From Natribaculum luteum (GTDB lineage Archaea > Halobacteriota > Halobacteria > Halobacteriales > Natrialbaceae): 64,000 nucleotides of DNA. The stretch lies in contig NZ_CP095397.1 in NCBI RefSeq assembly GCF_023008545.1, positions 1,488,001 to 1,552,000 on the forward strand. Direction: 5' to 3'. This document shows, one piece after another, positions 5,944-62,262 of the stretch. The notes beneath the pieces are model-generated. The model saw nothing but the letters and a program-made list of their open reading frames with translations, was not told the origin of the DNA and did not search any database. A program made the position numbers and the translations under genes. Within the stretch, counting starts at the first letter, position 1. The number at the start of each line of letters is the position of its first letter.

Positions 5944-6154
5944 CGAAAACTGTCTGTTTAGGAGTTTTACCTGGCCGTCCGTCTGACGTCCGGTACCGTC
6001 GACATTCGGTGGATTACCGATTCGATTCCTACCCTGCGAATCTGGATTCCGTTCAACGGTTGAACGCGCCCTCTCGCCCTCATGCAATTTTCGTTGTCGG
6101 GCGGTCACTGAGGTGGTCGGCGTGACGGTCTCGCCGTGGCCGTCGACGGACCAC

Positions 6155-49011: not shown

Positions 49012-49464
49012 ATGGAAAGATACCCGAAACCAGATGTTGACGACGTCGCAGGTGTTCTCGACCGACGCGCAGAAGCATTGCTCATCGACGGCCTCCTCGT
49101 GAGCGTCGTCGTCGGGGCACTCGGCTACGTAGCGGGTACCGTCCTCTCCGAGAGCGCACTCGGCGGTTTGGGGGGGCTGCTCGTCGCCCTGCAGTTTGGC
49201 GCACCCCTTGGCTTGCTGCTCTATCAGACCGGTCTCGAGGGATACTACGGCCAGACGATCGGCAAACGTCTCCGGGGCCTCGTCGTCGTCAGAGAAGACG
49301 GCTCGAGGTGTACGTGGGGTGCCGCTGTCGTGCGGAATCTCCTCCGGGTGATCGACGTGCTCCCCATTTTCTACCTCGTCGGGATCGTTTCGGCCTACGT
49401 CTCGTCGAATCACCAGCGACTCGGCGACCTCGTGGGGAAGACGCTCGTCGTCCACACCGAGTGA
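49012..49464 (+). CDS. RDD-family membrane protein
   Basis: The start is at MERYPKPDVDDVAGVLDRR (ATG 49012). The 150-residue protein has RRAEALLIDGLLV (the R...D segment of RDD), GQTIGKRLRGLVVV, and a final RLGDLVGKTLVVH. Three membrane segments lie between. RDD proteins are membrane proteins of mixed function, some implicated in ion exchange. The upstream sequence is very AT-rich (AAAAATTTAAACTATTATTG, 48979-48998), probably its promoter. Confidence 0.85.
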   Translation: MERYPKPDVDDVAGVLDRRAEALLIDGLLVSVVVGALGYVAGTVLSESALGGLGGLLVALQFGAPLGLLLYQTGLEGYYGQTIGKRLRGLVVVREDGSRCTWGAAVVRNLLRVIDVLPIFYLVGIVSAYVSSNHQRLGDLVGKTLVVHTE

Positions 49465-49539
49465 TCGCTCTCTGGAGCGCCGTCGACCCGTCACCGACCG
49501 GTGACGCGCTCGGCCCTCGTGAAGTTCTATCGCTCGAAA

Positions 49540-50018
49540 AAATACTCGCAGCAGAAGTATCGTCCCGAATACCGTATCCTCTGCTTACGAAGTTGTTCGC
49601 GGAGAATATGCCGCCTCCCGGATTTGAACCTCGCCGAGACGGTTCTGCTCGGTCGCTTCGCTCCCTGTGCGGACTGCGACTCGTCTGGTTCAAATCGCGG
49701 TCGGGTTGCATATTTACAGCTCGCGAATATGCTCGCCGCAAAAGTATGCCGCCTCCCGGATTTGAACTTCCGAAAGACTCGCTTTCGCTCGTCTTTCGAC
49801 TTCCCGCTCGCTGCGCTCGCGGGAACGGGGACAGCTCGATCTTCAGTCGAGTCCGACAGCTTCCCGAGTGGAAATCGCGCGGAAAAGCCATGCCACCTCC
49901 CGGATTTGAACCGGAGGAAGACGGTCGCCTTGCTTCGCTCGGGCGCTGCGACTTCCAGGGCTCAAATCGCGATCGGGTTGCACATTTGCAACTCGCGAGT
50001 ATGCTCGCCGCAAAAGTA
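49540..50018 (-). repeat. tRNA-Phe tail repeat cluster (three partial copies)
   Basis: Partial copies of the tRNA-Phe T-arm/acceptor end (CCGCCTCCCGGATTTGAAC or close) start at 49607, 49745 and 49889, before the real tRNA at 50019. Between copies lie spacers with inverted T-arms (GGTTCAAATC 49687-49696; CTCAAATC 49961-49968). Their cores are GC-rich, such as CTTCGCTC..GCGCTGCGAC, and a second conserved spacer CGCGAATATGCTCGCCGCAAAAG recurs with small changes before copies. One unit also contains a copy of the anticodon arm (49827-49852). There is no ORF with protein-like composition. Confidence 0.8.
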
Positions 50019-50092
50019 TGCCGCCTCCCGGATTTGAACCGGGGACAGCTCGATCTTCAGTCGAGTGCTCTCCCAGTCTGAGCTAAGGCGGC
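50019..50092 (-). tRNA. tRNA-Phe (anticodon GAA)
   Basis: A 74-base cloverleaf on the minus strand. Acceptor GCCGCCT/AGGCGGC with discriminator A, anticodon stem CTCGA/TCGAG with loop CTGAAGA (anticodon GAA), and T-arm CCCGG-TTCAAAT-CCGGG. CCA is not encoded. It is followed, in its own direction, by the tail repeat cluster. Confidence 0.96.
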
Positions 50093-50764: not shown

Positions 50765-50865
50765 CTACTGCCGACGAGCACTGGCTAGTGGTTTCTTAGT
50801 GTCGACTACTTTTCAACTCCTCCACCCGGACGAGTGGTGACTCCGAGTGTCGACAGCTCAGAGCG

Positions 50866-51347
50866 TGGCGGACTCGAGGCGGGCCGAACGACGCCGATGT
50901 GCTGGCGTCGCTTTCGGATCGCCGCGACCGACCCGTGTCGACTCGATTTCCTCTCGTCGTTGCTCTGCCGTCAGAAAGAAGCGATTGGGCAGATCCGTAA
51001 TCGATCTCTCCCGTGAACAGCCCGTGCTCGACTCGAGTTGGATCGATCTGCCTCGAGCTGTGCCCGTGCCACGGTACCTTGCTCGCGACAGCAATAGCAG
51101 GCTTGGGTGGGTTCGAACTACGCGAAGACGGTCGCTCTCGCGTTCGCTCGAGCGCTGCGTCTTCTCTTGTTCGAACCGCCACTCGCATTATACACCTGCT
51201 GCTCGCGGACTTGCTCGCAGCAGGAGTAGTGGGCTCGGGCGGGTTCGAACTACGCCGAGACGTGCTCGCGTCGCTGCGCGCGTCTCCTCTAGTTCGAACC
51301 GCCGCTCGCATACATTTCTCTGGCTCACTAATTGTTCGCCAGAGAAA
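50866..51347 (-). repeat. tRNA-Val tail repeat cluster (two clear copies, one decayed)
   Basis: Partial copies of the tRNA-Val acceptor/T-arm lie at 51230-51250 (TGGGCTCGGGCGGGTTCGAA continuing C) and 51100-51118 (one decayed form near 50873). Each is followed on the plus strand by a spacer ending in an inverted T-arm (GTTCGAACC 51292-51300; 51169-51177). Between copies, perfect hairpins occur: CATTTCTCTGGC/GCCAGAGAAATG (51313-51349), CCTGCTGC/GCAGCAGG (51195-51224) and GAAGACG/CGTCTTC (51124-51164). The upstream half of the gap from 50765 is less repetitive. Confidence 0.8.
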
Positions 51348-51421
51348 TGGGCTCGGGCGGGTTCGAACCACCGACCTCGGCCTTGTAAAGGCCGCGTCAT
51401 GACCAGCTAGACCACGAGCCC
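51348..51421 (-). tRNA. tRNA-Val (anticodon TAC)
   Basis: A 74-base cloverleaf. Acceptor GGGCTCG/CGAGCCC with discriminator A, anticodon stem CGGCC/GGCCG with loop TTTACAA (anticodon TAC), and T-arm GGTGG-TTCGAAC-CCGCC. CCA is not encoded. A perfect 12-bp inverted repeat begins at its 3' end. Confidence 0.96.
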
Positions 51422-51484
51422 GCATTCGAACGAAGACGGTCCGTCCGAATAACCTTTACCTTCTCGCCTCGCACCGTCGTGCGA

Positions 51485-61879: not shown

Positions 61880-62040
61880 TCGGCCAACGGCCACGGCGAG
61901 ACCGTCACGCCGACCACCCCGTTTCGGATACGAATTTCGCACGCAGGCGTCGACCCGAAACCAGTGACTGGTTCGGTTCCGGTTCAGACACCCCCTCGAG
62001 CGAAACAGAAATCCGGCGGCTCGAGTGGGTCAGGGTGCGA

Positions 62041-62187
62041 TTAGCGGCCGAATTTATTTCGGCCACGAATCGACTTATTTTTGGATGGGCCATGACGGAT
62101 TCGAACCACGGTCGCAGCGAAGCTGCTCCCTGATTCGAATCCGCCAGCGTTCCATTCCACACTGCTCGCTGTCGCTCGCAGGTTCCA
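62041..62187 (-). repeat. CAT-tRNA tail repeat unit
   Basis: One partial copy of the CAT-tRNA acceptor/T-arm end occurs at 62086-62108 (TGGGCCATGACGGATTCGAA continuing CCA). It is followed on the plus strand by a core (62107-62130) and an inverted T-arm TTCGAATCC (62134-62142), pairing with GGATTCGAA (62097-62105). The core is almost the same as that at the tRNA-Arg locus. A further stem GGCCGAA/TTCGGCC (62046-62064) lies on the outer side. Confidence 0.75.
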
Positions 62188-62262
62188 TGGGCCCTGACGG
62201 ATTCGAACCATCGACCACTCGGTTATGAGCCGAGCGCTCTAACCAGACTGAGCTAAGGGCCC
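62188..62262 (-). tRNA. tRNA with CAT anticodon (Ile2 likely, elongator Met possible)
   Basis: A 75-base cloverleaf on the minus strand. Acceptor GGGCCCT/AGGGCCC with discriminator A, anticodon stem CTCGG/CCGAG with loop CTCATAA, and T-arm GATGG-TTCGAAT-CCGTC. It is not the initiator type (no AGC-type acceptor). Haloarchaeal elongator Met genes that I know carry an intron in the anticodon loop, and this one has none. That favours tRNA-Ile with modified CAT; this assignment is inference. Confidence 0.85.

Follow-up and report, generated by a model that had tools for sequence, protein, structure and literature searches.

The window, by which we mean the whole 64-kb stretch of Natribaculum luteum DNA that was analysed, holds five tRNA genes. 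Behind three of them, tRNA-Phe, tRNA-Val and tRNA-Met, lie arrays built on copies of the gene's own tail; this layout is absent downstream of the tRNA-Arg and tRNA-Pro genes of the window. All parts of the tRNA-Phe array lie on the minus strand and are given below from the gene outward, in window coordinates.

50019..50092 (-): tRNA-Phe (GAA), host gene of the array (ARAGORN; Rfam RF00005)
50019-50039 (-): nucleotides 53-73 of tRNA-Phe
49985..50015 (-): unit 1, hairpin H1, TTTTGCGGC GA GC ATACTC GC GA GTTGCAAA (fold, alignment)
49960..49970 (-): unit 1, inverted T-loop arm, GCGATTTGAGC (fold)
49916..49959 (-): unit 1, core hairpin of class D (fold)
49891..49911 (-): copy 1 of tRNA-Phe nucleotides 53-73, one mismatch
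49826..49854 (-): unit 2, 29-nt partial copy of the tRNA-Phe anticodon arm, 27 nt exact
49803..49823 (-): unit 2, hairpin a, CCCGCGAGCGCAGCGAGCGGG (fold)
49771..49798 (-): unit 2, hairpin b, CGAAAGACGAGCGAAAGCGAGTCTTTCG (fold)
49747..49767 (-): copy 2 of tRNA-Phe nucleotides 53-73, exact
49713..49743 (-): unit 3, hairpin H1 (fold)
49688..49698 (-): unit 3, inverted T-loop arm, GCGATTTGAAC (fold)
49635..49683 (-): unit 3, core hairpin of class B (fold)
49609..49629 (-): copy 3 of tRNA-Phe nucleotides 53-73, exact
49577..49606 (-): decayed trailing H1, end of the array

The original prediction described tail copies separated by hairpin spacers behind tRNA-Phe, and these are real: three copies of the last 21 nt are present with 1, 0 and 0 mismatches, at copy-to-copy spacings of 128, 144 and 138 nt from the tRNA outward. 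At up to three mismatches, the last 21 nt of tRNA-Phe match only the tRNA itself and these three copies within the 64-kb window, and in 300 shuffles of the array the best chance match never fell below six mismatches. The copied part does include the tRNA 3' end, as had been stated, but instead of the whole T-arm it consists of the T-loop and the 3' strands of the T-stem and acceptor (nucleotides 53-73). The inverted half that had been placed ahead of the core is likewise present, though it is confined to the complement of the T-loop and 1-3 nt of the T-stem, the acceptor part being no better than chance. On folding, units 1 and 3 fit the alternating plan that had been described for all three units, whereas the middle one is an exception: it has no inverted T-arm and carries an anticodon-arm piece followed by a generic double hairpin. 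This double hairpin type also occurs on haloarchaeal plasmids, away from tRNAs, and its hairpin a is a generic haloarchaeal hairpin found off tRNAs as well. The class D core of unit 1 recurs at tRNA-His and tRNA-Gly-TCC.

The second and third arrays of the window comprise two units and one unit, respectively.

51348..51421 (-): tRNA-Val (TAC), host of the second array
51230..51347 (-): Val unit 1, with H1 at 51315-51347, inverted arm at 51292-51303, core at 51257-51287 and an exact copy at 51230-51250
51098..51229 (-): Val unit 2, with H1 at 51195-51224, inverted arm at 51169-51180, core at 51124-51164 and a decayed copy at 51098-51118
62188..62262 (-): tRNA-Met (CAT), host of the third array
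62086..62187 (-): Met unit, with H1 at 62162-62182, inverted arm at 62132-62142, class-A core at 62107-62132 and a copy at 62086-62106 (one mismatch)

Long ORFs running through the arrays, at window positions 49308-50081 (+), 49289-49891 (-) and 50796-51425 (-), are spurious, and array-crossing frames of this kind (e.g. those reading ...MPPPGFEPR... or ...RLPDLN...) could figure among the annotated proteins of related genomes. Separately, a sequence of about 31 nt, GGTGGTCGGCGTGACGGTCTCGCCGTGGCCG, occurs twice in the window, at about 6110-6145 (+) and about 61885-61920 (-), some 170-300 nt 3' of tRNA-Arg and tRNA-Met, respectively.

Read in the tRNA direction, a unit consists of H1, a spacer, the T-loop complement, a core hairpin and the tail copy. 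H1 begins at or near the tRNA end and has a loop such as GAACAANNTCGTGA, a pattern too short to be specific when searched alone. Units are non-coding, measure about 75-140 nt plus the copy, and stand in tandems of one to five. The limits of the copy are sharp, running from tRNA nucleotide 53, where the T-loop starts, to nucleotide 73, the mature 3' end; identity to the own tRNA is 92-100% within the copy, against 27-75% for other tRNAs at most of the variable positions, and it returns to roughly baseline one base beyond either end. Identity of the inverted arm to the complement of its own tRNA is, per position, 91-99% in the T-loop, 59-71% in the T-stem and about chance in the acceptor. Given this order and the inverted arm, the T-loop modules of an array alternate as forward, H1, inverted, core and forward. 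The core hairpins fall into a few classes, each recurring on many different tRNAs, with class A present on 22 tRNA kinds. The tRNA-His and tRNA-Phe genes share an almost complete unit with 81-82% identity over 98 nt, and the differences lie mainly in the inverted arm and the copy, each suiting its own tRNA.

Two variants of this anatomy were seen. Copies with one extra T-loop base (GTTCA[C/T]AATC) recur at Lys, Phe, Val, Pro, Thr and Arg tRNAs (loci L145, L169, L172, L174, L189, L232, L061, L085 and others), and apart from that base several of them match the tRNA tail fully or almost fully. At tRNA-Trp of another genome (G047; L266 / L268), one unit has its class-A core reverse-complemented between the T-loop arms, seemingly inverted in place; no other inverted core was found among 61 exact class-A matches.

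To establish how widely own-tail copies occur, we fetched 51 tRNA genes of the N. luteum genome, 49 of them distinct, and scored a copy where the last 22 nt recurred with at most five mismatches within 900 nt downstream. A copy follows 24 of the 49 distinct tRNAs, the first nearly always 75-145 nt away, while none of the 49 has one upstream; matches to the tails of foreign tRNAs are much rarer (174 of 2338 pairings). Among the tRNAs fetched from the second Natribaculum genome (G137) and three further genomes, own-tail copies follow 18 of 34, 16 of 34, 12 of 33 and 7 of 32. A covariance model of the unit, R1, gave 41 matches in the N. luteum genome, every one at a tRNA 3' end; the two without a listed tRNA proved to be at tRNA-Pro-CGG and an intron-bearing tRNA-Trp, and three of the 41 are antisense to units. 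Applied to 148 genomes drawn from the phylum, R1 matched in 23 of 24 Halobacteria and in none of the 124 others, and all 20 sampled loci (18 from other genomes and the two initially unassigned in N. luteum) lie beside a tRNA.

The original prediction was to be given up if no similar units stood next to tRNA genes in any other haloarchaeal genome, or if they were single local duplications without shared cores. Searching all GTDB r220 genomes with the class-A core pattern returned 57 stretches, all from Halobacteria, and the cores are common to many tRNA kinds, so that it survives on both counts. Among 61 class-A matches, 54 lie directly 3' of a tRNA called on the matching strand; of the others, most are behind tRNA ends that have decayed, and one is truncated where the fetched stretch stops. 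The class-A core was found in 68 of 292 genomes of the class and 30 of 77 genera, and the changes in its stem preserve the pairing. The original prediction also knew of no named element with this plan, and indeed neither Rfam nor the open-access literature searched offers a named family that fits: with Rfam 15, only two tRNAs of the array region reach the gathering score and two other matches stay far below threshold, and no published description of the units was found in that literature, subscription journals not being covered.

Two further loci deserve mention as observations in their own right. On the Natrinema thermotolerans plasmid CP031304.1 (L222 1322-1590), a broken tRNA-Glu, altered in the acceptor 5' strand and interrupted by an insertion close to the anticodon arm, has retained its 3' tail intact together with a unit. 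Dense clusters of extra tRNAs that look virus-like and lack typical units were seen at G000 contig C2 680-684 kb and at G058 C1 2240-2245 kb (L128).

Comparison across units supports the predicted folds. When 22 units are aligned, both partners have changed in 18 of the 26 pairs, and the covariation score of 0.423 compares with 0.173 in shuffles (0 of 500 reach it) and at most 0.10 when the pairing partner is slid. The folds are also strand-asymmetric. With G-U pairs disallowed in folding, the tRNA-sense strand has 2x2 internal loops reading GA/GA in 206 cases and TC/TC in 3, while single mismatches on that strand are G-G in 107 cases versus C-C in 6, and G-T in 90 versus A-C in 48; these counts are not independent, as the units are related. 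The sense strand is the better fold in 123 of 153 units, and the terminal loops are mostly C-G-closed triloops, largely GNA or TTC/TTT. The excess of GA/GA over TC/TC means that the structured strand is the tRNA-sense single strand, whether in the form of RNA or of single-stranded DNA. In DNA, GNA triloops and tandem GA pairs have unusual stability; folding scores computed for DNA and for RNA do not tell the two possibilities apart. A genome-wide hairpin family was considered and rejected, since GAGCGNAGCGA is not enriched (59 sites vs 67 in the reversed control); at least eight of the 59 sites lie in tRNA tails.

The arrays differ between the two Natribaculum genomes. Copy numbers stand at 3 vs 5 for Phe, 2 vs 3 for Asp and 2 vs 3 for Ser-CGA, the Phe difference having come about through duplication of a 272-nt block, a higher-order repeat. 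At tRNA-Val-CAC, H1 and the inverted arm (63 nt) are identical in both species and the core class differs; similar core swaps are found at Asp and Gly-GCC. Mean identity between the two genomes is 82% for the units, 94% for the 120 nt upstream of the tRNA and 71% for the downstream flank. Across 56 arrays with at least two units, the tRNA-proximal copy has on average 0.95 mismatches and the last copy 2.5, the last being worse than the first in 32 arrays and better in 4 (p=1e-6).

Integrated elements occur at some of the same tRNAs. In the second Natribaculum genome, tRNA-Glu (L253) has no adjoining unit; some 15.3 kb on, behind a gene for a Phage_integrase-domain protein (PF00589), lies a piece of about 64 nt from the tRNA-Glu 3' end, directly after which come a complete Glu unit and the same flank that N. 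luteum has downstream. At tRNA-Tyr of G047 (L269), an apparent integrated element of about 20 kb with a tail repeat of about 13 nt parts the tRNA from its Tyr unit. The Glu and Tyr cases thus show ordinary integrases using the same tRNAs with footprints of a different kind, so that the units do not stem from them. We also rejected the units as a virus-carried mobile element: phage records contain no unit, a single viral contig has one only beside a host tRNA-Glu, and the class-C core is absent. Scanning 483 kb downstream of 272 tRNAs gave no distant own-tail copy that would point to a gene-carrying version, and neither an enzyme nor an autonomous copy for the units was found.

The sharp 53-73 ends on at least 25 tRNAs, the shared cores, the exclusive location, the tandem growth and the distal decay together lead us to propose, tentatively and with slightly less than even confidence, that the units are short DNA elements, non-coding and made up of hairpins, which insert in series at the T-loop/3' end of tRNA genes. 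An insertion would add a direct repeat of nucleotides 53-73 of the own tRNA, keep the tRNA gene intact and push the older tail downstream; we infer that the repeat would arise either by target duplication upon insertion or by a crossover at nucleotide 52/53. A recombinase or transposase acting in trans may recognise the structured tRNA-sense strand in its single-stranded DNA form, an inference for which no enzyme has been found, and the elements themselves would be selfish or, at best, of slight use. Direct copies could afterwards recombine with one another and so expand, contract and mix the units. Insertion is only inferred, because no clean empty site has been shown against a single filled one and no mobility step was observed. 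Further points speak against it. The inverted T-loop arm is tRNA-specific, which plain target duplication alone does not yield, so that later compensatory change or copying from the target has to be assumed; moreover, the decay gradient and the exact copies are also possible by unequal recombination with gene conversion. It is conceivable, though on balance we think it rather unlikely, that haloarchaea possess a dedicated structure-recognising DNA integration system that adds hairpin units one by one at the T-loop/3' end, duplicating nucleotides 53-73 each time, so that the tRNA gene would play the part of a leader to a polar array that keeps growing.

The main rival places the function in RNA, as a structured 3' trailer: the tail would be transcribed with the tRNA, and its hairpins would act in 3' processing, in termination or as small RNAs released from a copy. 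The right end of the copy coincides with the mature 3' end that tRNase Z would set on the tRNA, the units are exclusively tRNA-sense and on the tRNA 3' side, and both the sense-strand GA/GA loops and the better fold of that strand, as well as the excess of G-T over A-C mismatches, would suit a transcript. Runs of at least four T after 27% of unit-bearing tRNAs (vs 12%) point the same way, but runs of five are rare (2%), which leaves the terminator reading weakly supported. Nor does any hairpin require an identical acceptor strand, and the loops are triloops rather than GNRA or UUCG loops. Half of the tRNA genes do without units, whose presence and number vary even between sister species, and tRNA-Glu of G137 and tRNA-Tyr of G047 persist with their arrays 15-20 kb off. 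We hold a trailer to be unlikely, without setting it aside. Recombination alone would need no dedicated mobility: unequal crossing-over and gene conversion, acting in polyploid cells, would have amplified, reshuffled and homogenised an old duplication of the tRNA tail and its native trailer hairpin. This reading could draw on the 272-nt block duplication in the Phe array, on crossovers in the arms as a cause of core swaps, and on the concentration of decay in edge copies. It leaves unexplained why the same plan with identical ends at nucleotides 53 and 73 stands on at least 25 tRNAs, and how cores passed between unrelated tRNAs, and we regard it as improbable.

Two remaining explanations start from integrases. 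Remnants of integrase elements, i.e. attL/attR pairs left by tyrosine integrases after loss of the DNA in between, would account for the copied segment, identity blocks at the T-loop and 3' end being a known att type in tRNA genes (PMC8371274). This reading is already largely refuted and receives the least credence here: the unit hairpins are conserved rather than random leftovers, the real elements at Glu and Tyr differ in repeat length and size and separate the tRNA from an array that is intact, and the phage records and lone viral contig offer it nothing. Alternatively, the extra tRNA ends might be decoys or backup landing sites that shield the gene from integrating elements or permit its repair. 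The copies are indeed exact over the region that integrases use, and integrases hit the same tRNAs, but the Glu and Tyr elements used the tRNA itself instead of a copy; as hairpins and shared cores also go unexplained, we deem decoys very unlikely.

A strand-specific hairpin family that is confined to tRNAs, copies their own tails and extends across an archaeal class points to either an unknown site-specific mobility or an unknown tRNA trailer biology, and serial insertion and the trailer are both testable, haloarchaea being genetically tractable. The units also account for a set of spurious ORFs 3' of haloarchaeal tRNA genes and illustrate the evolution of tRNA ends, a favourite landing site of mobile DNA.

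Set against known systems, the unit family is, provisionally, undescribed. The integrative elements that archaeal tyrosine recombinases insert at T-loop or 3'-end att sites of tRNA genes likewise leave a second tRNA 3' end and an undamaged gene, whereas the units are about 100 nt long, free of genes, tandem, present at many tRNAs at once and built of conserved hairpins; they share the 3'-end direct repeat (nucleotides 53-73) but neither carry an integrase gene nor are decayed forms of an element that does. CRISPR arrays and casposon-Cas1 integration resemble them in tandem repeats identical to a fixed site, apparent growth at one end and distal decay. The unit repeat, however, is a tRNA tail that differs per locus, and the spacers are related hairpins rather than foreign DNA, so that the CRISPR criterion of one repeat with unrelated spacers is not met, H1 and core classes being shared. 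Integron attC arrays consist of imperfect hairpins of variable length with one structured strand, in tandem beside a fixed site. Their likeness to the units is one of layout only (hairpins, one structured strand, tandem at a fixed site), since the units have no cassettes, no integrase was found for them and their site is a tRNA. The PATEs and IS605-type elements of Haloquadratum are similarly non-coding, haloarchaeal and palindromic, with plausible single-strand mobility, yet PATEs duplicate no target sequence and no tie to tRNAs is described for them (PMC3119063), whereas the units carry a 21-nt repeat of the target tRNA. The scattered insertion expected of MITEs is not met either, all 41 R1 matches being at tRNA 3' ends. 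REP/BIME repeats form arrays of alternating inverted hairpin modules, as the units do, but only the units carry a target-specific 21-nt copy and are confined to tRNAs.
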